From: Deltaproteobacteria bacterium
Lineage (GTDB): Bacteria > Desulfobacterota > GWC2-55-46 > UBA9637
Length of the DNA: 33,041 nt
Assembly: GCA_016219285.1 (NCBI GenBank)
Contig: JACRNJ010000056.1
Location: 1 to 33,041 of the forward strand
Direction of reading: 5' to 3'
In this document: positions 2,762 to 22,725 of the stretch, piece after piece
Numbering within the stretch: position 1 is the first letter of the stretch
How the letters are laid out: the number at the start of each line of letters is the position of its first letter
The notes under the pieces: generated by a model
Seen by the model: only the letters and a program-made list of their open reading frames with translations
What the model was told of the DNA's origin: nothing
The model's database searches: none
Made by a program: the position numbers and the translations under genes

Positions 2762-5191
2762 TTAGTTTGAATCTTTTGCCAAGTTTTCTATGGCTTCAAG
2801 ATAGGTTTTCCCGCTGTTGAGCAGCGCATTGATTTTGGAGTTATCACTTGCGTCTGATGTGTACATATAATACAAGAATGGGCTTAAAAGCAGCCTTAGA
2901 GCCCCTGTACCCATCGGCGATTCAAGAAAAAATTCTGAATATTTAGGGCGGTTGGACTTTATGCTTTTTAGCATTTCAAAAGCAAAACCGTCAAAATCTA
3001 TAAGATCTTCTTTTTTTGCCCTTTCGTAATCTGACGACTCAAGATAGAATTTATGTGCCGAGTTGCTTCGCAGGACATTGCCTATATTGCCGAATTGTTT
3101 TACATCCATAATGCTTTGCACCACTTTAATAAAACTTCCCTTATATTTTCTTGCGCGTCTGTCTCCATCTTCTATAACATCTGCAAGGTAGCCTCCTTCT
3201 TTAAAAAATTGCCATGCCTCATCGAAAACCACCATTCTGGAATCCTCTCTATTGGATAAATAAAGGTCGAAGGTTACATAATTCAGGACTTGGAGGACGA
3301 TAACGTTGAAAAGTTCTTTTTTTTCTTTTAAATGCTCAAGTTCAAGCACCACAAACTGGTTTTTGGAGATATCCAGAGTGGATTTTCCGCAGAACCATCT
3401 CCCATATGCGCCTTGTGATGTAAAATCCCTAAGATTGCGTGCAAGAGTTGATGCTGTTTCAACAAGGTCATCGCTTGCGTCTTGTGTATATTTACGATAA
3501 TCAATGAGATATTGATATACCGTATCTATTGTTGCGTCCTGACCTTGAGTGTCATATGCCCAGCGGACTGCGTCTTTGATAAGAGTTGCCTCTATTTCAA
3601 TAGGGGTTGCCTTTGTAAAGGAATAAACCATCTGGAGTACTATTTTGGCAATAGTATGTAAGTCTTCGTTTATCTCTTTAATGTTGGAAAAAGGGTTCAA
3701 GCATATATTGGAATTATTGGTAAACTCTATGAATTTCCCTCCCAGCATAGAGCATGTCTTCTTATACGACCCTCCTATATCTACTATTCTTATATATGCC
3801 CCTGAGCCGTAGTAGCTAGATATAATATGATTGACAAGAACGCTCTTTCCTCCTCCGCTTGCTCCGACAATAAGGGCATTCATATTAACAGACCCCATAT
3901 CATAGATGTCCAATCCTACAACCTCACCTTTCCTGCCTATAAACAGAGTCTGCGGTTTAATACTGATGCTCTGGATATCAGCCTGTATTGGGAGAAGGTC
4001 AACTATTGTTTTGGACGGAAGGTTAAAATCCCTGTCCAGCATCTTGACGTTATCGCCGATGTTATATAGCCCAAAAGGAATGCACGACAAAAACAGTGGA
4101 GGGAGAATCCCCTTCTCTTCCTGCATTACATAACCTTTTTGTTCCCACAACCTTTTTACGCGGACAATAGATTCTCTAGCCTTCTCCTCATTACTGTCTA
4201 TTACTGCTACAACAGGTATTACCCTGAAAAACATCTCCCCCCTTTCCATCTCATCGGTTGCCCATAAAAACTCTTCCTTGCGTCTTGTAAGAGATGCGCT
4301 TAAACTACTGACCGTGTGTTGTTGCATTATCCATGCTGTCTTACGGCCTATAGCCGACTTAAGGTCATCAAAGACAATATTATAAACAAATATGAAGGGG
4401 CATTTTATCTGGTTATTATCGGAAACAACCCCCCATATGTCGCCTGAAAGCGTATTACTTGCAGACATAGAGGAAAAGGCGGGTGTTGATTTAGGGGTTG
4501 TAATTTTGCACACACGTGAACCGAGTGTAAGCTTATTAACGTCGTGGATTATGTCAGTATCGGCCAGTATAATTTGTTTAGATATCTCTTTATTATCGGA
4601 GTACTTCTGATGCCTCGGCGGTGTATCGTTGAAAATTCCCGAAAGCATACTTATTAACCCTTCAGGCGGTAAACATGAAGGGTTAAGATGCGCGCCTTTC
4701 AGGATGTCATACATTGAAGCCTTAATATCATCAAGGGTTTTGCCGACTGCGGACCATGACGGGATTTTAATAGATACAAATAGTCTGAAATTTCTTAAAG
4801 GGATCCCTTGTAATTTAGAAACTCCCTTTGTTCCTTCTGTTAAAAACCGGGCATATTCCTCAACACTTTTCTTTATAAGAGGGTTATTTCTTGTTTTTAA
4901 TTTTGTGTATTCGTCCATTATATTGTCTATATAAGGATCGGCATATAAGATAAACTGGAGAACAGATTCTGGAGGAATACCTGTCTTAAAAATGCCCATA
5001 AGGGTTTGTGTAATCTTCTCTGAAGAAGAATAGAGAGGGATGCATTCCCATATAAACCCTACAGTATCGTCAGTATTGTAGTAAGCATTTGTATCAGGGT
5101 TGTATGATAAGTATGGAAGATAATCGGAAAATTTATCTCTCTCTACCATTGTCCGAAGCTCCCTTTTTGACATGCCGAGTGAAAGTCCCAC
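2762..5191 (-). CDS. traC: Type IV secretion ATPase TraC (VirB4 family)
   Basis: Cytoplasmic motor ATPase that drives pilus assembly and DNA transfer. The 809-residue length is normal for TraC. Walker A is GASGGGKS at residues 443-450 and Walker B is MVVFDEAWQFF at about 650; the segment after it, D-R-R-A-R-K-Y-K-G, is typical of the family. The N-terminal half is the TraC-type domain that docks on the secretion channel. The likely start is GTG at 5191, with GGGAG 7 bases upstream; the ATG at 5173 has no ribosome site. It begins 3 bases after traV and is followed by traN. Confidence 0.93.
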   Translation of the reverse strand: MGLSLGMSKRELRTMVERDKFSDYLPYLSYNPDTNAYYNTDDTVGFIWECIPLYSSSEKITQTLMGIFKTGIPPESVLQFILYADPYIDNIMDEYTKLKTRNNPLIKKSVEEYARFLTEGTKGVSKLQGIPLRNFRLFVSIKIPSWSAVGKTLDDIKASMYDILKGAHLNPSCLPPEGLISMLSGIFNDTPPRHQKYSDNKEISKQIILADTDIIHDVNKLTLGSRVCKITTPKSTPAFSSMSASNTLSGDIWGVVSDNNQIKCPFIFVYNIVFDDLKSAIGRKTAWIMQQHTVSSLSASLTRRKEEFLWATDEMERGEMFFRVIPVVAVIDSNEEKARESIVRVKRLWEQKGYVMQEEKGILPPLFLSCIPFGLYNIGDNVKMLDRDFNLPSKTIVDLLPIQADIQSISIKPQTLFIGRKGEVVGLDIYDMGSVNMNALIVGASGGGKSVLVNHIISSYYGSGAYIRIVDIGGSYKKTCSMLGGKFIEFTNNSNICLNPFSNIKEINEDLHTIAKIVLQMVYSFTKATPIEIEATLIKDAVRWAYDTQGQDATIDTVYQYLIDYRKYTQDASDDLVETASTLARNLRDFTSQGAYGRWFCGKSTLDISKNQFVVLELEHLKEKKELFNVIVLQVLNYVTFDLYLSNREDSRMVVFDEAWQFFKEGGYLADVIEDGDRRARKYKGSFIKVVQSIMDVKQFGNIGNVLRSNSAHKFYLESSDYERAKKEDLIDFDGFAFEMLKSIKSNRPKYSEFFLESPMGTGALRLLLSPFLYYMYTSDASDNSKINALLNSGKTYLEAIENLAKDSN

Positions 5192-5194
5192 AAC

Positions 5195-5656
5195 CTATCT
5201 CCCTTCTTTAATCAGATAATCACCAACAACCCATTTGGGGTCATCGATAAGTATGTATATATAGCGGGGCATATAAAGCTCTGATTTGCTTGCGTAAGGA
5301 AATATCAACACCCTTAATGCCTTTGGTGGAATAACCACAGGTGTGACAGGATTATCTATAAGGTTTGTAAGTTTTTTTTGGAGTGTTGACTTGTAGCCTG
5401 GTTCAGTATCATCTTTTTTGTTTTCTTTTTTGCTGTCGTTCTTAACCCCCTCTTCTCTGTTTTTTTTCCCGCTTCCATTAAGAGAATCATTAAGAGATTC
5501 TTCATATGCCTCACTTACAGATACACATTTACCCTTATCCACATCAGGGCATTGAAAACTCGAAGAATAAGGCGTAAGAGCCGAGCAACCCGACACAACC
5601 CCCAAAAATGCTGGCAAAAGTGATAAGAATAAAAAATTTTTTATTAATAATCGCAT
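5195..5656 (-). CDS. traV: TraV outer-membrane lipoprotein of the T4SS core
   Basis: Small lipoprotein (153 residues) that anchors the TraK/TraB core complex in the outer membrane. The signal peptide ends in the lipobox VVSGC, so Cys24 would be acylated. Next comes FQCPDVDKGKCVSVSEAYE, the TraV family signature with two further cysteines, then a charged linker rich in K, E and N (about residues 60-85) and a C-terminal beta-type segment starting VVIPPKALRVLIFPY. The start overlaps the traB end by 13 bases and the stop lies 3 bases before traC. Confidence 0.9.
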   Translation of the reverse strand: MRLLIKNFLFLSLLPAFLGVVSGCSALTPYSSSFQCPDVDKGKCVSVSEAYEESLNDSLNGSGKKNREEGVKNDSKKENKKDDTEPGYKSTLQKKLTNLIDNPVTPVVIPPKALRVLIFPYASKSELYMPRYIYILIDDPKWVVGDYLIKEGR

Positions 5657-7005
5657 TCAAGACCTCCAAGGCAATAATCTTTTACTGCCAACACAACCCC
5701 TTCCTCTATTACAATAGTAATGTCCTTAACTGCGCCCACTTCTACCACAGGGAATGTTTGCCTGGCCATATCCAGGTAAAAATCCTGCAGTTTATCAAAC
5801 CCTGTACCGATTCCCTTACCAACCCCTGCTGTCAGTATCTTTTCAGGATTTATGTTTTGAGTTGTTCCCAGTGCAGACACAGATGTTATTCTTGTCGAAT
5901 CTTCTACAGCGCTTCCGACGCCTCCAAAAAAACCTGCCAACACTGACCGCCCAAGCAATGCGCCTGCCCTTGTTACGACGGTTCCGGCAAGTCCTATTTG
6001 GCCGTCTTCATCTACAATATATCCTTTAACCTTAGCTTCTATGACTGATTCGCCGGTTTTAGAAATACAGGAAAGGTTTTCGAGCCTGGCATGTGCCCTC
6101 TCATCAGAAAGGTCTCCATGTACAGATGCAATAACAAAACAACCCTTGAGATTGCTCTTGATTTCGTTGGGGAGTATTGCAAGGTCTTTTATCCGTATTA
6201 GAAGGGGTTTCTCTTTTCCCTGTCCCCCCTGCATTGTTGCAGCCCTTGCCCCTGTTAGAAGAGTAGCCGGCATAAATGATGGGGGAAGGTAATATCTTAA
6301 TCCTTTTTCTGTTTTAGCTTTTTGTTGTCCAGCGGTGGTTCCGGCGCTGCCGACAGAAAACACTTCTATACCGTCTGCCTTAATATCTGCCTTTACTGTC
6401 TGCCCTCCGCCCTGCATCTTCTGATTTTGAGCCTGTTGTGGGTCTTTTTTTGGGATTCCGGTGTTTACAGGAGCTTCCCCCGTGATAATGGGAGAAGGTG
6501 GATAAGGAGGGGTGTTGGTTTTATTATTAGTATTATTAGTATTATCGTTATTAGAACCCGGCAGAGGTGCCTGCGGCAGGGGTATGTTTTTATTTACAGG
6601 CGCTACACCTGATTGTTTTTGTGCTGAACCGGGCTGCTCTATACTTTTTTTTCTTTCCTGCCCTTGAGAGTCTATTTGTTTCTTAATATCCTCCAACATA
6701 CCCTTAAGTTCATTAATCATGCTATCACGTTTTTCAATTTCCTCTTTAATTGTGTTTGTATACTGCCTGTCTAAAAGCTTTTGGTCTATAAATAGTTCTT
6801 TTGCTTTTTCCTGTTTAATACCTGTCGGATGCTGTTCTTCAGGCGATATTGTTTTTTTAATATAAATTGCTCCAACAAAAACAAGGAATACTACTACACA
6901 GGCCATAGCAACAGCCTGTTTTTTTTGTTTAGGATTGAGTTTGTTCCATATTTTTTTTATCCCCTTACTTGGTTCGGGATCTATATTATTATTAAGAGAT
7001 GCCAA
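5644..7005 (-). CDS. traB: TraB inner-membrane scaffold of the T4SS (VirB10 family)
   Basis: VirB10-type protein that spans the periplasm and links the inner-membrane motor to the TraK/TraV core. Order: short cytoplasmic tail, one membrane helix (about residues 31-50), coiled coil rich in E, K and Q (65-115), Pro/Asn-rich linker (130-185), and a C-terminal beta-barrel domain with the GGVGSAVEDS stretch seen in the family. The start appears to be TTG at 7005, since GGAGG lies 9 bases upstream inside the traK end and no in-frame ATG is near. Length of 453 fits F-type TraB. Confidence 0.92.
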   Translation of the reverse strand: MASLNNNIDPEPSKGIKKIWNKLNPKQKKQAVAMACVVVFLVFVGAIYIKKTISPEEQHPTGIKQEKAKELFIDQKLLDRQYTNTIKEEIEKRDSMINELKGMLEDIKKQIDSQGQERKKSIEQPGSAQKQSGVAPVNKNIPLPQAPLPGSNNDNTNNTNNKTNTPPYPPSPIITGEAPVNTGIPKKDPQQAQNQKMQGGGQTVKADIKADGIEVFSVGSAGTTAGQQKAKTEKGLRYYLPPSFMPATLLTGARAATMQGGQGKEKPLLIRIKDLAILPNEIKSNLKGCFVIASVHGDLSDERAHARLENLSCISKTGESVIEAKVKGYIVDEDGQIGLAGTVVTRAGALLGRSVLAGFFGGVGSAVEDSTRITSVSALGTTQNINPEKILTAGVGKGIGTGFDKLQDFYLDMARQTFPVVEVGAVKDITIVIEEGVVLAVKDYCLGGLECDY

Positions 7006-7009
7006 ATTT

Positions 7010-7801
7010 TTATTCCTCCCCCCACCTTTTTGTGTCTTTAATGGTATCTTGATTGCTTGCCTCGTTATCGTTGTACATATCCATAGCGCTGTCTACGATA
7101 AACAGCCTATAATCTGTGTTTTTGACAACAGCGCTATGTGAAAATGCTATAGCCAGAGGTTTTTTGGCAAGCGGCATAAAGTCTATTTCCCGTAATTCAG
7201 TATCTATCTTAGGGGTTATTATATATTCTCTTATTTCTACCCCCTCTCCCTCCACGCGGATTATTCTCTTTAAGAGAACATCTATATTGTTATATTCTAT
7301 ATGAGGTTTTCTATCCTCTTTTTTGACTTCCACTACCCTGAAGCTATCCGGATATTCCTCTTTATAAGCCATTCTGATGAATCTTAATGCCTTTTCTTCT
7401 GTGGGAACCCCTTTATATACGGAGATATTGCCCTTAATATTCTTTTTATTTTCAAGCTGTACCGTAACGGCAGGCACATTTCCCGATTCCGTTATAATGC
7501 TGTATAAAGTATCATTGCAAACAATATATATATCCATTGTAAGCCCTGCCTTTGACGCAATTGGGAACCTGATAAAGACATTCTCTCCCACAGCCTTGAC
7601 TGTAATTTCCTGCTCTTTTGCATAAATGACATCTTTTATCTCACCGCCAGTGCAAGCAACCCTATTTATGTTTGTGGCGCTCATTATAACTCTTGTAGGA
7701 ATATCCGGCGGCACAGAAACAAATGCGAATAAGTAATCTGTGATGAGAAGAAATGAAAAGAACGAAAGAAGCACAGTGATATATATTTTTTTACTTTTCA
7801 A
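7010..7801 (-). CDS. traK: TraK periplasmic secretin-like T4SS core protein (VirB9 analogue)
   Basis: Exported 263-residue protein; a signal peptide covers residues 1-27. Directly after it comes a beta-rich domain with a conserved TNINRVACTGG stretch and IYAKEQEI, typical of TraK N-terminal domains. In F-type systems TraK forms the outer-membrane-proximal ring with TraV and TraB. The start is TTG at 7801: AAGGAGG sits 6 bases upstream, and this TTG overlaps the traE stop as TTGA, suggesting coupled translation. The next gene, traB, begins 4 bases past the stop. Confidence 0.9.
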   Translation of the reverse strand: MKSKKIYITVLLSFFSFLLITDYLFAFVSVPPDIPTRVIMSATNINRVACTGGEIKDVIYAKEQEITVKAVGENVFIRFPIASKAGLTMDIYIVCNDTLYSIITESGNVPAVTVQLENKKNIKGNISVYKGVPTEEKALRFIRMAYKEEYPDSFRVVEVKKEDRKPHIEYNNIDVLLKRIIRVEGEGVEIREYIITPKIDTELREIDFMPLAKKPLAIAFSHSAVVKNTDYRLFIVDSAMDMYNDNEASNQDTIKDTKRWGEE

Positions 7802-8382
7802 AATATACCTCCTTTTTTGATGTCATAAAGAGATAATTTGCCGTTGTCTATACGTGTGGAGAAAGTATATTTCTCATTTTCTTCGTGTACCTTTTGGTCT
7901 TTGTTATATAATATCTGTGTACCTGTAATCTCTATTTTCAACATACCACTACCATCTGTTTTATATTTTATAGCGTAAATGAAAAAAACACTTACAATCC
8001 TGGAATTTGCAACATTGTCGGCAGCGTCTGATAATTTTGTTTTTGTGTTTACGTATAATGAGGGAGTGAACAATCCAAGGAGTTCAGCGTATTGAGCATG
8101 GATAGTAGAAGGGGTATAGCTCAAAAAGAGCCCCGCCATATATTTGCCCATCATATGTATATACTTTTCATCGGCCCATGTTGTTCCGACTTCTATTTTT
8201 TCGTGCAGTGGAGAATTTAATGCAGACACCGGTATAACAACTATACGCTGATTGTAGATAGCCCTGTATGTAAAATAGCTGTTTACTGCGACAACAACCC
8301 CAAGGGCGCACAGAAGAACAGTCAGAATTATATTCTTAGACTTAATGTTTGCAGTTTCATTAAGAAATATGTCAAATTTCAT
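7798..8382 (-). CDS. traE: TraE inner-membrane T4SS protein (VirB8 analogue)
   Basis: A bitopic membrane protein of 194 residues: short N-terminus, one membrane helix (about residues 19-40, NIILTVLLCALGVVVAV), then a periplasmic domain with the family-like segment DEKYIHMMGKYMAGLFLSYTP. It belongs to the TraE family that bridges the inner membrane platform and the core complex. The ATG at 8382 overlaps the traL stop (ATGA), which favours it over the longer frame that begins at 8415. Stop overlaps the TTG of traK. Confidence 0.92.
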   Translation of the reverse strand: MKFDIFLNETANIKSKNIILTVLLCALGVVVAVNSYFTYRAIYNQRIVVIPVSALNSPLHEKIEVGTTWADEKYIHMMGKYMAGLFLSYTPSTIHAQYAELLGLFTPSLYVNTKTKLSDAADNVANSRIVSVFFIYAIKYKTDGSGMLKIEITGTQILYNKDQKVHEENEKYTFSTRIDNGKLSLYDIKKGGIF

Positions 8383-8645
8383 TCTGTAAACCTTTTTATA
8401 AAAAACATGGGACAACCTTTAAAATCCTTTAGCCCTAACATATATGGGAGATGGCCAACAAAACCCCTATTATATTTGTTTTTTATTTTTGAATATGTAT
8501 AAGGGAAAACAAACAGAAAAATAAATTTTATTCCAAACACAAGAAGAAGTGTAAGAGATAACAATATTAGTGCGAATTCGTCGCTTTCCCACCATAAGGT
8601 TTGAGAAGGTTTATGAAGATATTGGGGTATTTTCTGTTCAGCCAT
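8379..8645 (-). CDS. traL: TraL pilus-assembly membrane protein
   Basis: Short membrane protein (88 residues) of the TraL family. It starts MAEQKIPQYLHKP, a typical TraL beginning of the form IPxxLxxP, followed by WWESDEF and two hydrophobic stretches (about residues 27-52), then a C-terminal segment with HLPYMLG. The ATG at 8645 fits family length better than an upstream frame reaching 8699, which would run into the hairpin behind traA. Order traA-L-E-K-B matches F. Confidence 0.9.
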   Translation of the reverse strand: MAEQKIPQYLHKPSQTLWWESDEFALILLSLTLLLVFGIKFIFLFVFPYTYSKIKNKYNRGFVGHLPYMLGLKDFKGCPMFFIKRFTE

Positions 8646-17129: not shown

Positions 17130-18368
17130 TCAGGCCGCCAGAAGCAGCCCGTTAGTATTTTGCAGTTTTCTGACTTTGTTAATAGAAGCGCCGTTATAAA
17201 GCTCCCTGCCTCCGGCATCCGCTATCCTTACCACCCCTCTTGAAAAGAGGGTGTTGACATAGCCGATTACTGTACGCTTATCCTTGGTTGTATATTCCAC
17301 AAGGTCTCCTTTCTGCAACCTCACTCCAACCTTATTAACCAGATACCTGTTTGCGTTGTAAGGTTCTCTATATCCGCCAGCCTTAGGGTTAGCATCGTGC
17401 AGTTTGCGGTTCTTGCGCCTTACAAATCTGCCTGTTAAAGAGGTAGCATCCGGTATGGAATCGACATCAGCTTGAACCCCAAACGCTGCCCCACATACAG
17501 ACAGAGCATCGTTTATATGGGATTTTTCAAGACCAAGCTCATTCCTTGCCTTGACCATATTTTCTGTGGATATATTCACTAACCCATGCCAGGATTTTCT
17601 CAGCATATTAACCCTTGCAGCCCAGATATAGTTTTCGTATATTTGCCTGTATTTAATCTCGCCCTTTTCTATCTTCCCGTGGCAGTCTTTACATAAGGTT
17701 ACGAGGTTTTTAGGTCTATCTGTCCCGCCCCTGAATCTCCATATAATTCTATGAGTCTCCCTCTGAACATCTTTGCCGCAGGCTATACAGCCATAGCCGT
17801 CTCTATGCAAAACATATTCCCGGACATCAAAGAATCCTTTCTGAGGGCCATTTTGGTATTCTTTGCCCTTAATATCAGGATTCTCCATCTTCTGAAAGTC
17901 GAATTTGTTGACCTCCACTGCATCAGAAGTTATAGGCAAGATGGATTTGATAAAAGTCCTTGCCTTATCGTGCTCGTGTTTGAGGTGACGAATAGAAGGC
18001 GGCAACTAGTTATTAGACCTGCCTCTGTTATCAAATCTTGCCTTGCGATAGCGGGTCTTTCTGAATCGCCTGCCTCTCCTATAGCTTCTCCTTTCCAAAA
18101 GATTATTAGAAACATCTGTTCTGCACTTGGCTTCTATTGTGAATAAAACCTTGCCGTCATTCCTTACGGCTGCTATCCCCTGAGTGAGTCCAGGTTCCTG
18201 ACCGAGATAGACAGGCTGGGTATGACTGTCTGTGTCAAAGTTCAGCTTTATAGTGAACGGCCTGAGCATGATTACTTCTGCCTTCCCTGCCCTGAGAAGG
18301 TGTTTAGCCTTTGCTGGTTTGCAGGGCATCAGGGGGCGCCCATCTCTATGTAGAACAAATACTAACAT
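17130..18368 (-). pseudogene. iscB: IscB RNA-guided nuclease with in-frame amber codon
   Basis: IscB, the ancestor type of Cas9, 412 codons with one TAG. Order: PLMP domain (RPLMPCKPAKA, residues 11-21), RuvC-I (LGQEPGLTQGIA, 55-66), arginine-rich bridge helix (RRSYRRGRRFRKTRYRKARF), RuvC-II with VEVNKFD, HNH domain (CIACG ... NLVTLCKDCH), RuvC-III (SHINDALSV), C-terminal binding domain. Codon 121 is TAG (18006-18008) in RGRSNN-stop-LPPS, where relatives have tryptophan (GWLPPS), so one G-to-A change explains it. The RuvC-I aspartate is Glu58 and the HNH HH pair is His206-Arg207, so both active sites look changed. AGGAGG precedes ATG by 3 bases. Read-through or reinitiation at the next TTG could still give product. 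Confidence 0.88.
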
Positions 18369-18705: not shown

Positions 18706-19584
18706 CTATACTACAGAACCGGTCCTAAAGCTTTCCCAATCAAAAACCACAACCCTGCTGTCGGATGTCTTATCCAAAAACCTATCCATGATTCTCACGC
18801 CTAATATATCCTGCATTTCCTCATATGAGAGGTTTGTAGTGGCTACCACCGGCTTTTGTTCCTCATGTCGGCCATCCAGAATTTCATAAAGCACATCCTG
18901 CTCGGTTTTTGTGCCGAACTGCACCCCTATCTCGTCCAATACCAACAGGTCGACGCCTACAAGCTTGTTTATGATGTCACTTTCACTTTCTTTAACCCCT
19001 TTTGACCAACTGTCTTTTATTCTTCTTAAAAGGGGTCTAACCTTCTCATATCTCGCGGTGTGTTTTTGCTTTATTACTTCCCTTAAGATTGAGATGGCCA
19101 GGTGCCCTTTGCCTGTTCCGACATTTCCCGCAAACAACAGCCATTTGCCTATTTCCATTGCCTCGTTAAAGTTTGTCGCAAAATCCTTTACAATCTGAAG
19201 AGTCTCTTTCTGTTGTTGTGTTGATGCAACATAGCTGTCAAAACTTACCGTCCTGAATCTTTTCTTTACCTGTGCAGACTGCATGACGGATTCAAGCTTT
19301 ACGACCGGCGGAGCAGCAGGTTTGTCTTGAGCGTAAAGACACTTATTACAAATCCCCCGCCATCCCGGTTCTTTCAGTCCTGCATGTTGCATAAGCACAG
19401 GAATCCACACCCAAACAAAATACAAGGGATACTGACACACTATGCATGAACCTTCAGGTTTTGGGGACCTGAGTTCCGGAGGATTTGTTTCGGTCAAGAA
19501 TGTGCTGAGGGAAACCAAACGCTCCTGTTTTGATAGTCTGGCCCTCTTTTGCTCCAACAACTCCTGCCCTTGATGGATTTCCAA
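18706..19584 (-). CDS. dnaC: DnaC-like helicase-loader ATPase
   Basis: AAA+ protein of up to 292 residues. A zinc-finger-like part (CIVC, residues 47-50, with GICNKC about 45 later) precedes the ATPase core: Walker A GNVGTGKGHLA, Walker B LLVLDEIGVQ, sensor ATTNLSYEEM, and the arginine-finger region LGVRIMDRFLD. It matches DnaC/IstB-type loaders that bring the replicative helicase to an origin; with no IstA nearby, a replication role is more likely. The N-terminus overlaps parB by 131 bases, so the true start could be further in, but must lie before the CIVC motif. The IscB element begins just after the stop. Confidence 0.85.
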   Translation of the reverse strand: MEIHQGQELLEQKRARLSKQERLVSLSTFLTETNPPELRSPKPEGSCIVCQYPLYFVWVWIPVLMQHAGLKEPGWRGICNKCLYAQDKPAAPPVVKLESVMQSAQVKKRFRTVSFDSYVASTQQQKETLQIVKDFATNFNEAMEIGKWLLFAGNVGTGKGHLAISILREVIKQKHTARYEKVRPLLRRIKDSWSKGVKESESDIINKLVGVDLLVLDEIGVQFGTKTEQDVLYEILDGRHEEQKPVVATTNLSYEEMQDILGVRIMDRFLDKTSDSRVVVFDWESFRTGSVV

Positions 19585-20896
19585 TATGGACTCCTTTCTT
19601 TTTAATATAATATACTTCTATGTCTGCAAACTTAGCCCTGAACTTTATAAGGCTCTTTACGCTATCGCCGAAAAGCCACTGGTCTTCTTTTTTCCCCAAT
19701 AGTCCAGGTGAAGTGTTTTTGTAAAATGTGTAGAGGTTTTTAATGTAGTCTGCAGGGTCTTCAGTCTTTTTCTCCTCTAAAACCTCAAGCAGACTGTTGA
19801 ATATTTTTGCTACCCTTCCGCCGCCGTTGCCGTTTACCTTTTCGGGAGGGTTGTTGTCCCAAACATGGTAATACCAGTCCGTAAGTTCTTTAATCCGCGA
19901 ATCTGCTTGGGAAGAGCCAGTCGCGCCGAGTTTCTCGGCGGCTGAACATACCCTTTTTGCTTTTTTAAAGATTTCCAACATCGCCTCATCAACCTTATCG
20001 CCGGCCTTAACAGTATAGAGCGTCTCTTTAAGCAAAGATGCGCCAAATTCGGCCTTTGCATGCGAAGGGAGAAAAGCTGTTAATTTCTTAATGCCGGACA
20101 GATTTGTTAAAAGAAAATTCTGGAGTTTTTCTGTAAAAACATGGTCTTCTTTTGTATAGCCGAGGATGGTATCTATGGATGCTTTCAGAGACTTAAGGAT
20201 GTGTTCGGGAGCGGCTGCCTCTTTTGAGTTTGCGGGTTTGGTTTTGTCACTCAACCCCTTTTTCTTGCCCTCTATTATGCTTTTCACAGTTTCTTTTTGT
20301 TTTTCACCATCCAAACGAGCTAATTTTAAAAGAGCCGTTTTATTGTTTTCTAGGGGCGTGTTCCTAATAAGGTCTTTAACATCACCATTTATCTTCTCCG
20401 CAATCTGGAGTTCTCGTTGGATGGAGCGACGAGATAAGCCTGTGGAGGAGGCTGTATTTTCTGAAAATGTCTCCGTGGCGACACGCGTGTCGCCACGGTA
20501 CTGTTTTAACCCTTTTTTGCGCGCTTCGCCTTCTTTTGCTTCAGTATACAGCTCTTCATAAATATCTTTTCTTCTTTTGAGGTATTCTGCTTTCTCCAGC
20601 GCCGTAAGGTCATTTCTGATAAGGTTTTCGTCTATCTCTACAAGCTCACCCCTGAGGTCGTCAATGTCAATAACAACTACTGGAATTGTTTCCCAACCGA
20701 TGGATTTGACTGCCAGAAACCTGGATTTCCCTGCTTTAAGTTCGTAACCATCACTAACTCTTTTTACAGTAACAAGGTTTAATAACCCAATTTCTTTAAT
20801 TGAATCGCTTAAAGCCCTGATATATTCCTCAGTATGAGTCCTACTGTGTTTTTGTGATATCCGTATCTTGTTAATAGGAATTTCAATTATCTGCAA
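19454..20896 (-). CDS. parB: ParB/Spo0J-family partition protein
   Basis: 480 residues. The N-terminal ParB CTPase domain is clear: IIEIPINKIRISQKHSRTH, IREIGLL-type helix (IKEIGLLNLVTV), YELKAGKSRFLAVKSIGW, then ENLIRNDLTALEKAEY. A helix-turn-helix with STGLSRRSIQRELQIAEKI follows at about 155-175, then a long helical tail. It would partition the excised ICE or regulate transfer. The start appears to be TTG at 20896; upstream codons stay open without ATG, while an ATG at 20991 lies one frame off. A 26-base perfect palindrome encodes GDTRVATE in the linker before the helix-turn-helix. No parA is in the window. Confidence 0.87.
   Translation of the reverse strand: MQIIEIPINKIRISQKHSRTHTEEYIRALSDSIKEIGLLNLVTVKRVSDGYELKAGKSRFLAVKSIGWETIPVVVIDIDDLRGELVEIDENLIRNDLTALEKAEYLKRRKDIYEELYTEAKEGEARKKGLKQYRGDTRVATETFSENTASSTGLSRRSIQRELQIAEKINGDVKDLIRNTPLENNKTALLKLARLDGEKQKETVKSIIEGKKKGLSDKTKPANSKEAAAPEHILKSLKASIDTILGYTKEDHVFTEKLQNFLLTNLSGIKKLTAFLPSHAKAEFGASLLKETLYTVKAGDKVDEAMLEIFKKAKRVCSAAEKLGATGSSQADSRIKELTDWYYHVWDNNPPEKVNGNGGGRVAKIFNSLLEVLEEKKTEDPADYIKNLYTFYKNTSPGLLGKKEDQWLFGDSVKSLIKFRAKFADIEVYYIKKKGVHIGNPSRAGVVGAKEGQTIKTGAFGFPQHILDRNKSSGTQVPKT
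20473..20498. repeat. 26-bp perfect palindrome inside parB
   Basis: CCGTGGCGACACG followed directly by its complement CGTGTCGCCACGG. It is translated as part of the linker between CTPase and helix-turn-helix domains. It may be an inserted mobile palindrome or a binding site. Confidence 0.85.
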
Positions 20897-21108: not shown

Positions 21109-21288
21109 TTACACTACTGCCCTGCTTAATCTTTTCCTCATAAATTCCTTTAAGGCAGACTCTGGAATAAGCACTGGCCTGCCCTTTATGGCAGTTATCT
21201 GTTTTGCGCTTATGAGGTTTGAAATGCTCTTGGGCTTCTTTTTAAGGATATTAGCGGCCTCACTGATTGTGTAATGTTCTTCAATCAT
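21109..21288 (-). CDS. Excisionase-like MerR-type helix-turn-helix protein
   Basis: A 59-residue protein: MIEEHYTISEAANILKKKPK, then SISNLISAKQITAIKGRPVLIPESALKEF. This is the excisionase/AlpA-type HTH_17 fold, with YTISEAA as helix 1, the recognition helix around SISNLIS, and a short wing before LIPESALKEF. In ICEs such proteins are recombination directionality factors or regulators of excision. Start is ATG at 21288. It lies 1.4 kb from the tRNA-Met fragment, as expected for an excision gene, though no integrase is adjacent. Confidence 0.8.
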   Translation of the reverse strand: MIEEHYTISEAANILKKKPKSISNLISAKQITAIKGRPVLIPESALKEFMRKRLSRAVV

Positions 21289-21340: not shown

Positions 21341-21372
21341 GTCGCTCATATCACAGGAGCGTGGATTGAAAT
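21341..21372 (+). other. Solitary CRISPR repeat-like unit 1 (type I-C-like)
   Basis: 32 bases, GTCGCTCATATCACAGGAGC followed by GTGGATTGAAAT. Known type I-C repeats are 32 bases, start GTCGC or similar, contain a short stem, and end GTGGATTGAAAC. Here the stem is CGCTC/GAGCG and the 3' handle differs only in its last base. No second repeat lies within 60-80 bases on either side, so this is not an array. After it comes AGTCAA-N11-TTGACT, a weak stem. Confidence 0.7.
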
Positions 21373-21390: not shown

Positions 21391-21419
21391 TTGACTCTTC
21401 TGTCATAATTTTATTTATA
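21391..21419 (+). promoter_or_regulatory. Putative sigma-70 promoter of the ribbon-helix-helix gene
   Basis: TTGACT at 21391-21396 and TTTATA at 21414-21419, spacer 17 bases, 54 bases before the ATG at 21473. The -35 box lies inside the right arm of the small stem that follows the first solitary repeat. Confidence 0.4.
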
Positions 21420-21472
21420 GTTTATTTTGGTTATATTTTACACCATATCAAACCATTGTCAAGGAAAACTTT

Positions 21473-21661
21473 ATGCCGGAAAAATTAACCCCCATTACTA
21501 TTCGTATTCCCGAACGACTAAAAGAAATTATTGATAAAACAGCTAAAACACAAAGACGCTCTATCAATAATCAAGTTATTTACATGCTTGAGCATGCTGC
21601 CGACCATCTGGGTCTCTTTCGCGAGGAATCCGTTCCTCTGAAAAAAAAGCCTCAAGCATAA
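21473..21661 (+). CDS. Arc-like ribbon-helix-helix DNA-binding protein
   Basis: 62 residues. LTPITIRIPERLKEIIDKTAKTQRRSINNQVIYMLEHA fits the Arc/MetJ ribbon-helix-helix fold: the beta strand PITIRIP, helix A up to TAKTQRRS, and helix B from INNQVIYMLE. It would bind DNA as a dimer of dimers and act as a regulator, possibly of the flanking solitary-repeat RNAs or of a lost toxin. AAGGAAAA precedes ATG. It sits between the two CRISPR-like repeats, tail to tail with a second ribbon-helix-helix copy on the other strand. Confidence 0.8.
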   Translation: MPEKLTPITIRIPERLKEIIDKTAKTQRRSINNQVIYMLEHAADHLGLFREESVPLKKKPQA

Positions 21662-21757
21662 GAATAATCTGGTTGTTAAACTTCTTCGTTCTTTTGAAGA
21701 GATTTTTTTAATTTTATTGTAAATACCTTCCGGTAACCGGATTGTAATTGGTTTCAT
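21565..21757 (-). pseudogene. Second ribbon-helix-helix gene, frameshifted, antiparallel
   Basis: From the ATG at 21757 the minus strand encodes MKPITIRLPEGIYNKIKKIS, then SKERRSL, closely parallel to the plus-strand partner (PITIRIPE, RRSI). After RRSL the frame goes wrong, but one base shift near 21681 gives NNQIILMLEAFF, the matching helix B. So a one-base deletion, probably in the A/C run there, broke a functional ribbon-helix-helix gene. The shifted frame would overlap the 3' end of the plus-strand gene. The two copies differ a lot in DNA sequence, so they are old paralogues rather than a fresh inverted duplication. Confidence 0.6.
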
Positions 21758-21766
21758 AAGTTGTCA

Positions 21767-21798
21767 GTCTCTTCCTACTTGGGAGCATGGATTGAAAC
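21767..21798 (+). other. Solitary CRISPR repeat-like unit 2 (type I-C-like)
   Basis: 32 bases, GTCTCTTCCTACTTGGGAGC followed by ATGGATTGAAAC. The 3' end GGATTGAAAC is the exact type I-C handle. The stem is CTTCC-TACTT-GGGAG with one G-U pair, at the place of the normal CTCCC/GGGAG stem. It lies 394 bases after unit 1 in the same orientation. Ten bases later a strong hairpin starts (21807-21861). Confidence 0.72.
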
Positions 21799-21806
21799 TC
21801 ATCTCC

Positions 21807-21861
21807 GCAAAAAAGGCACAGCAGCTACATCCTCGTGAGATAGTATCTGTGTGCCTTTTGC
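21807..21861 (+). terminator. Terminator-like hairpin after solitary repeat 2
   Basis: GCAAAAAAGGCACAG (21807-21821) pairs with CTGTGTGCCTTTTGC (21847-21861) with two small bulges; the plus strand ends in CCTTTTGC. It is placed so that a transcript through repeat 2 would be about 90-100 bases long and end here. It could also serve as a bidirectional terminator between the ribbon-helix-helix and repressor genes. Confidence 0.5.
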
Positions 21862-21995
21862 ATTCTGAAAGGGGCAATAGACTTGTTTGAGAGAACAGGC
21901 TCGCCCCGCTTCATACTTGGTTTATACTGTTTTGTTTTTCTTTGATTTGACTGCATGCCCTGTTCTCTCTTAGAGTGTATGGGAGATTATGCACT

Positions 21996-22035
21996 ATTGC
22001 GTATGCGTGTCAAGTAAAAAAATTACAATTGCGTA
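21996..22035. promoter_or_regulatory. ATTGCGTA direct repeats upstream of the XRE gene
   Basis: ATTGCGTA occurs at 21996-22003 and 22028-22035, 32 bases (three helical turns) apart, the second ending one base before the ATG at 22037. Likely operators for autorepression by the XRE protein. Confidence 0.45.
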
Positions 22036-22036
22036 G

Positions 22037-22465
22037 ATGAATACTTTTGCCAACAAATTAGACCGGGTAGTTAAAGAAAAATTCGAGGGTAAAGCTCGCC
22101 GTTTTGCTTTAGCCGCCGGTATAAGCGAAACAACATTAAATTCTTATTTTAAAAGAGGAAGTCTCCCTGGAGTTGAGATTTTATTAAAACTTGCTAAAGC
22201 TGGAGGGGTTACTGTTGACTGGCTCCTTACCGACGAGGACGAATCATATAAAAGAAAAAAACATCCTTCCTTACTTACTAAACCCCATGCCGAATACGGC
22301 TATAGCAAAAAGGAACGAGAATACGTCAAAATGCTCATTGACATTTTAAGGGGACAAAATCAGGAATGCGCAGAGGCAATAAAATCTAGCATTAAAGCAT
22401 TTTGGAAAAGCCGCGATCTGGCAAGCAATATATCTATTCATAAAAAAACAAAAAAAGCAGGGTGA
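22037..22465 (+). CDS. XRE/CI-type phage-like repressor
   Basis: 142 residues. The N-terminal helix-turn-helix is clear: RRFALAAGISETTLNSYFKRGSLPGVEILLKLAKAGGVTVDWLLTDED, the common opening of small phage and ICE repressors. The C-terminal part is helical, without a LexA-type peptidase dyad, so induction by RecA self-cleavage is not expected. No ribosome site precedes the ATG. As the last ICE gene before the tRNA fragment it probably controls excision or transfer. Direct repeats upstream may be its operators. Confidence 0.8.
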   Translation: MNTFANKLDRVVKEKFEGKARRFALAAGISETTLNSYFKRGSLPGVEILLKLAKAGGVTVDWLLTDEDESYKRKKHPSLLTKPHAEYGYSKKEREYVKMLIDILRGQNQECAEAIKSSIKAFWKSRDLASNISIHKKTKKAG

Positions 22466-22675: not shown

Positions 22676-22725
22676 GGGGTCTCATAAGCCCTTTGTCCGT
22701 GGTTCGAGTCCACGCACCGCCACCA
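22676..22725 (+). tRNA. 3' fragment of tRNA-Met(CAU), att scar
   Basis: The 50 bases carry an anticodon arm GGGGT-CTCATAA-GCCCT with anticodon CAT, a 5-base variable loop TTGTC, a perfect T arm CGTGG-TTCGAGT-CCACG, and the acceptor 3' strand CACCGCC-A-CCA. The upstream bases show no D arm and no matching GGCGGTG acceptor strand. So only the 3' half of an elongator tRNA-Met exists. That is the att duplicate made when an element integrates into a tRNA gene. It marks the ICE/chromosome border. Confidence 0.85.

Follow-up and report, generated by a model that had tools for sequence, protein, structure and literature searches.

The stretch of DNA analysed here (the window, 33,041 nt) corresponds to contig C49 in a genome of 2.28 Mb that is 99% complete. 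F-type conjugation genes for TraC, TrbI/TraB-like, TraK and TraE proteins were identified with Pfam on its minus strand (2762..8415), with ParB-like and DnaC-like genes found on the same strand (18706..20896). At the right end of the element, beside ndk, lies a partial tRNA-Met(CAT) copy of 49 bp that comprises the 3' half (22677..22725, plus strand) and is presumed to be attR, while the intact tRNA-Met gene was located at G000:C5:3888-3963 with a tyrosine integrase gene adjoining it. Owing to these conjugation genes, the tRNA-Met 3' half and the integrase, the element can be categorized by its gene content as an integrative conjugative element (ICE) with an F-type type IV secretion system, within which contigs C5 and C49 presumably join. 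A phage reading was rejected, as the genes present are conjugative (TraC, TraE, TraK, TrbI) and an early PHROG terminase match was found to be a match to an ATPase domain only. No DNA relatives of the locus were found among 63 genomes of the class, plasmids or phages, and no protein relatives among viral contigs, genome contigs or plasmids. Other features of the element include a gene for an RRXRR plus HNH endonuclease on the minus strand (17130-18368), which occupies two frames with a probable frameshift, and a perfect 13-bp palindrome (CCGTGGCGACACG/CGTGTCGCCACGG) at 20473-20498 in the ParB-like gene region.

The control region of the ICE was found to contain several genes for small DNA-binding proteins. 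These are an HTH_17 (excisionase/MerR-like) protein (21109..21288, minus strand; PF12728, 1.8e-10), a 62-aa Arc/RHH-like repressor (21473..21661, plus strand; PHROG Arc-like repressor, 6.5e-7) and a CI-like repressor (HTH_3/Phage_CI_repr; 22037..22465, plus strand). A second, weaker RHH-like ORF of 79 aa (21518..21757, minus strand; PHROG Arc-like, 0.0016) overlaps the 62-aa gene in antisense, and these facing ORFs (21473-21757) may be the relic of an inverted duplication. No convincing gene was found over 21758-22036.

Of the promoters predicted here, the strongest (TTGACA-16-TAAAAT, 21435..21462, minus strand) scored 12.0, above the 95% level of shuffled sequences (10.9), and points leftward into the HTH_17 gene. 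A second strong prediction (TTGACA-16-CATAAT, matching 11 of 12 positions; 21986..22013, minus strand) scored 11.1 and is likewise directed leftward. The best rightward candidate, TTGACT-19-TATAGT with its -10 element at 21416, reached 9.8 and thus remained below the shuffle level.

Two solitary repeats of type I-C CRISPR character were identified in this region on the plus strand, 426 nt apart. Unit 1 (GTCGCTCATATCACAGGAGCGTGGATTGAAAT, 21341..21372) precedes the RHH start by 100 nt and is in the path of the leftward promoter at 21435..21462, to which it is antisense. Unit 2 (GTCTCTTCCTACTTGGGAGCATGGATTGAAAC, 21767..21798) is intergenic, 105 nt beyond the stop of the RHH gene and 9 nt from the start of the 79-aa ORF. 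Each unit matches its closest I-C-type repeat, among the loci collected here, at 26 of 32 positions (81%), with the top match of unit 2 being itself a degenerate unit (in locus L035). By comparison, 60 random windows with matched dinucleotide composition gave maxima of 18-23, and the third-best site of the real window gave 19 matches. The preliminary description had called unit 2 repeat-like, and these figures bear that description out.

The sequence TGGATTGAAA, the core of the I-C 5' handle, occurs at only two sites when both strands of the window are considered, namely in units 1 and 2. Unit 2 also retains the full 11-nt handle (TGGATTGAAAC, 21788..21798, plus strand), within which GGATTGAAAC occupies 21789-21798. 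An alignment of both units with ten other I-C repeats showed that the handle core is invariant (columns 22-31), while the stem varies with its pairing retained: 90.5% of stem cells were paired, and covariation was 0.38 compared to 0.21 in shuffles, of which 0/500 were as high. As the identity exceeds that of the random windows, and given the invariant core and the covarying stem, I-C repeat ancestry of both units is well supported by their sequences. In unit 2 the upper stem (pairs 5-9 with 15-19) is retained and the stem base (3-21, 4-20) is broken; in unit 1 the lower stem and cleavage site are intact and the loop is enlarged. Retention of the handle core in both units with drift elsewhere suggests selection. 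A remnant of an array was ruled out, as no further repeat was found at spacer distance of either unit and the units share no flanks. A known RNA family was also rejected, with no Rfam match above its gathering score. The unit 2 pattern CTYCCNNNNNGGGAGCATGGATTGAAAC gave no matches other than canonical GTCNCTCCCC-type repeats, almost all of which lie within ordinary I-C arrays, and a distantly related element in genome G026 (DnaC 38% identical) was found to carry no unit within 29 kb.

The sequence common to both units, GGAGCRTGGATTGAAA, could instead be a DNA operator for a repressor of the element, with the CRISPR likeness being secondary. Copies do lie in both divergent control regions, beside the RHH, HTH_17 and CI-like genes. 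However, no further copy was found in the window at up to 3 mismatches, and the likeness to I-C repeats spans all 32 nt, including the 5' GTC and the stem, so that we regard an operator as very unlikely.

Behind unit 2 lies a hairpin (21807..21861), with its arms GCAAAAAAGGCACAG (21807-21821) and CTGTGTGCCTTTTGC (21847-21861) and its ending CCTTTTGC located exactly as previously described, though the gap from the repeat is 8 nt (TCATCTCC) and not the ten bases given before. Computational folding, which the preliminary description had proposed as a check, gave -21.4 kcal/mol for the hairpin (z -3.9, with 0/200 shuffles as good) and z -3.8 for the whole stretch 21763-21865. The arms do not form a clean 15-bp stem, their pairing being interrupted by bulges and the loop being itself structured. 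Its strength as an intrinsic terminator was scored with a Carafa-type score D. Rightward, with the four-T tail TTTTGCATTC, D was -9.0 and below threshold; leftward, with the six-T tail TTTTTTGCGG, it was +3.7, which is above threshold but marginal. A simple terminator scan of the region did not include this hairpin among its calls. From these D values, the hairpin is at best predicted to terminate in both directions, with a preference for leftward transcripts. The earlier view of it as terminator-like thus stands as regards a real and strongly folding structure, and is weakened for the direction in which unit 2 would be read.

This asymmetry, together with the leftward promoter at 21986..22013, which points into the hairpin and is antisense to unit 2, raises the possibility that the hairpin terminates or attenuates a leftward transcript whose start, near 21984, lies opposite the CI-like gene. 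In that case unit 2 would lie behind the hairpin by chance and be at most an element of the 3' UTR of the RHH mRNA, a role that its position downstream of the RHH stop would permit, with no dedicated small-RNA gene. A single hairpin can nevertheless serve both directions, and this account leaves unexplained why one control region should hold a pair of I-C repeats whose handle cores are intact. We consider this account possible, if on the unlikely side. For rightward transcription, no convincing promoter was found immediately upstream of unit 2; a transcript from the candidate at 21416 would span the RHH gene, unit 2 and the hairpin, and given this candidate unit 2 would form the 3' UTR of the RHH gene. 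The dedicated small-RNA gene previously proposed therefore keeps the solitary repeat and the hairpin directly behind it in its favour, as well as the recurrence of this layout elsewhere (see below), and is burdened by the weak rightward terminator and the poor rightward promoters.

The flanks of the units were examined for their predicted effect on the handle. The 5' flank TCAGTCT of unit 2 (21764..21770, plus strand) is complementary, allowing G-U pairs, to the handle bases GGATTGA and is predicted to sequester them: the mean unpaired probability of GGATTGAA was 0.035, compared to 0.37 with shuffled flanks (p 0.023), and the handle in its context was predicted to be 0.06 unpaired, versus 0.85 for an isolated canonical repeat. 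In unit 1, the 5' flank TTTAATTT can pair with GGATTGAA, and the handle is likewise predicted to be sequestered (p 0.013 against shuffled flanks). Occlusion of this kind is uncommon, with 12 cases at p <= 0.05 among 88 other solitary repeats (median p 0.4). With a broken stem base and a paired handle, unit 2 may be a substrate that is bound and not cut, or simply a poor one.

Solitary I-C repeats were gathered from 2.9 million viral contigs (among the matches listed) and from the genomes of the class, and were screened for a terminator with D >= 0 starting within 35 nt of the repeat. Under this strict test, and among the matches listed, a terminator was found downstream of 8/87 solitary I-C repeats (loci L128, L155, L258, L136, L284, L177, L197 and L292), compared to 1/87 and 2/87 in two controls. 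When D >= -10 was allowed, nine cases were found among the matches listed, of which that of the window is the weakest. Two tandem I-C-like units with a duplicated 5' flank were found on the minus strand of L035 (7573-7700), the second being followed after a 9-nt gap by a terminator-like hairpin with a short T tract (D -1.5). Within 100 nt of solitary repeats there was no excess of terminators among the matches listed (28 downstream, 33 upstream). A repeat, a short gap and a terminator thus exist as a minority layout among solitary I-C repeats. The preliminary description had taken this layout to fit a dedicated RNA and not an array fragment; the exclusion of an array holds, whereas the layout alone is also compatible with a relic or a cis-regulatory role.

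Several further arrangements were observed among the collected viral contigs and loci. Contigs L094, L115, L145 and L164 each carry two dispersed solitary I-C repeats, several of them before gene starts, with compensatory differences in their stems. Contigs L044 and L062 have a leader and an I-C repeat in common with wholly different downstream sequences, in the manner of one-repeat mini-arrays with different spacers. At L080, L082, L088, L101, L115, L136 and L155, AAAC often directly follows the handle, as if the end of the repeat had been duplicated.

Screening of the 63 class genomes, in which a control pattern gave zero matches, also revealed solitary I-C repeats 0-33 nt upstream of chromosomal start codons on the same strand (loci L072, L074-L077, L079, L392, L393, L396-L398 and L400). 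The genes preceded include rpmC, secD, gcvT, uppS, adk, rpsK, porG (in two species), an MBL-fold gene and, in the carrier genome, vapB, among others; with the exception of vapB, these names are our own reading of the translations. In gcvT of genome G019 the repeat is placed between GGAGG and ATG. With strict gene criteria, a start codon lay within 35 nt of 7/17 repeats, compared to 6% of random positions, and viral contigs showed the same bias (27/74 versus 9/74, among the matches listed). An assembly error is unlikely to be the cause, and no published description of solitary I-C repeats before the starts of housekeeping genes was found in the literature searched.

Solitary repeats are accordingly not specific to anti-CRISPR elements, and one on a mobile element need not be an anti-CRISPR, as such repeats also precede housekeeping genes. 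Units 1 and 2 could be further dispersed copies of this kind, either relics or cis-acting leader or UTR elements that Cas5c may bind or cut, with no decoy function; they are of the same repeat family, are likewise solitary and come from the same class, and unit 1 lies upstream of the RHH start. Unit 2, in contrast, precedes no gene on its own strand and is followed by the hairpin, where the chromosomal copies directly precede a start codon, and the conservation of the handle core against drift elsewhere also speaks for more than a relic. We therefore hold this explanation to be rather unlikely. These leader repeats are the more surprising lead of the analysis and raise the question of Cas5c targets outside CRISPR arrays. 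In a broader and improbable scheme, I-C repeats would form a dispersed regulatory family of the lineage in leaders and UTRs, through which Cas5c would bind or cut mRNAs or be titrated, with the ICE pair around the RHH gene sensing host I-C immunity and unit 2 with its hairpin being the decoy end of the same transcript.

The CRISPR systems of the carrier and its congeners were also compared. In the carrier genome, whose arrays were examined around cas1 matches, a cas operon resembling type I-B and a further cas1 locus were identified; no I-C cas7 was found in this 99% complete genome. A genome of the same genus (G003) has an I-C cas7 (1.3e-83) adjoining an I-C array (GTCGCGCCCCATGCGGGCGCGTGGATTGAAAC), and genome G002 has a cas7 fragment with a longer array. 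Spacers of the I-C arrays collected here gave no convincing match to the window.

In type I-C systems the cut made by Cas5c falls 11 nt before the spacer (PMC3727216), and a Cas5c-Cas7.7 clamp on the handle nucleates the assembly of Cascade (PMC7684278). Racrs are RNA anti-CRISPRs of phages and plasmids that mimic CRISPR repeats, of which RacrIC1 is active and lies 11 nt downstream of a small gene, with which it shares one transcript (PMC10651486). It is tentatively proposed that unit 2 acts as a decoy for Cas5c in the manner of a Racr and is coupled to a bidirectional terminator, a reading that leads our list without reaching even chances. Rightward transcription would place unit 2 in an RNA, either a short one of its own or the terminal 3' part of the RHH mRNA, and this RNA would present an I-C repeat hairpin and an exact 11-nt handle, with a stable hairpin after 8 nt in place of the spacer. 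Upon entry of the ICE into a host with type I-C immunity, Cas5c, together with Cas7.7, would bind the handle, and the downstream hairpin would block growth of the Cas7 filament, so that Cascade subunits would be tied up in an RNA anti-CRISPR action. The same hairpin would double as a bidirectional terminator between converging transcripts.

This decoy proposal is favoured by the presence of two units in one control region, their invariant handle core beside a covarying stem, the ICE context, the I-C system of G003 in contrast to the carrier genome, the recurrence of the layout, the published Racr precedent and the nucleating role of the handle clamp in I-C Cascade. Against it stand the identity of the units, the broken stem base and predicted pairing of the handle in unit 2, which could hinder Cas5c, the weak rightward terminator and poor rightward promoters, the lack of a collected I-C spacer matching the window, and the repeats before housekeeping genes. 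The possible leftward terminator and the rather unlikely relic both compete with it. If true, it would extend RNA anti-CRISPRs to ICEs and to degenerate repeats missed by the published identity rule, and a hairpin that replaces the spacer would suggest a way of stalling type I-C Cascade assembly.

Comparison with RacrIC1 and other Racrs showed a shared arrangement, in which an intergenic, solitary repeat of I-C type is carried by a mobile element a short distance behind a small gene, with the handle kept and the repeat hairpin retained in part. Candidate Racrs are defined with SRUFinder by >= 90% identity to a known CRISPR repeat over >= 90% of its length (PMC10651486), and are taken as solitary when no second repeat occurs within 100 bp. 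The two TGGATTGAAA sites of the window are well separated by this measure, and unit 2 is intergenic on an ICE with a type IV secretion system, att site and integrase; as the best identity to the I-C repeats collected here, 81%, falls below 90%, the units are not filed as Racr members and are only suggested to work like one. They further differ from RacrIC1 in their ICE carrier, in being two dispersed units, in this lower identity and in a carrier genome that lacks an I-C cas7, and unit 2 differs in its broken lower stem and predicted handle sequestration, with the upper stem retained. The action proposed for unit 2 agrees with the activity of RacrIC1 and is unlike that of RacrIF1, which works by way of Cas6f, with a Cas7f filament on the RNA that precedes the cut (PMC10651486).

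Viral and plasmid CRISPR mini-arrays (PMC6858448, PMC11656645) are similar in that a mobile element carries CRISPR repeats unaccompanied by cas genes, whereas at this locus there is neither a second repeat at spacer distance nor a spacer matching the window. Degenerate ectopic repeats are also typical of CreTA addiction modules (PMC9458426, PMC8501985), and unit 2 might accordingly be a CreA-like guide RNA that partly matches a promoter. This is hardly credible for either unit, as a search of the whole window for 7-of-8 seed matches together with a TTC PAM found none, a spacer between two repeats is lacking and the hairpin occupies the guide region; nor was a guide match, a linked cas operon or a toxin RNA seen. 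At another locus (L011, G000:C71:25310-28220), genes for Cas1, a SAVED-domain protein and a CRISPR ring-nuclease-like protein were identified beside a two-copy repeat (GTCGCAATCCCTTCTACATAAGGTCTTAGTTTC).
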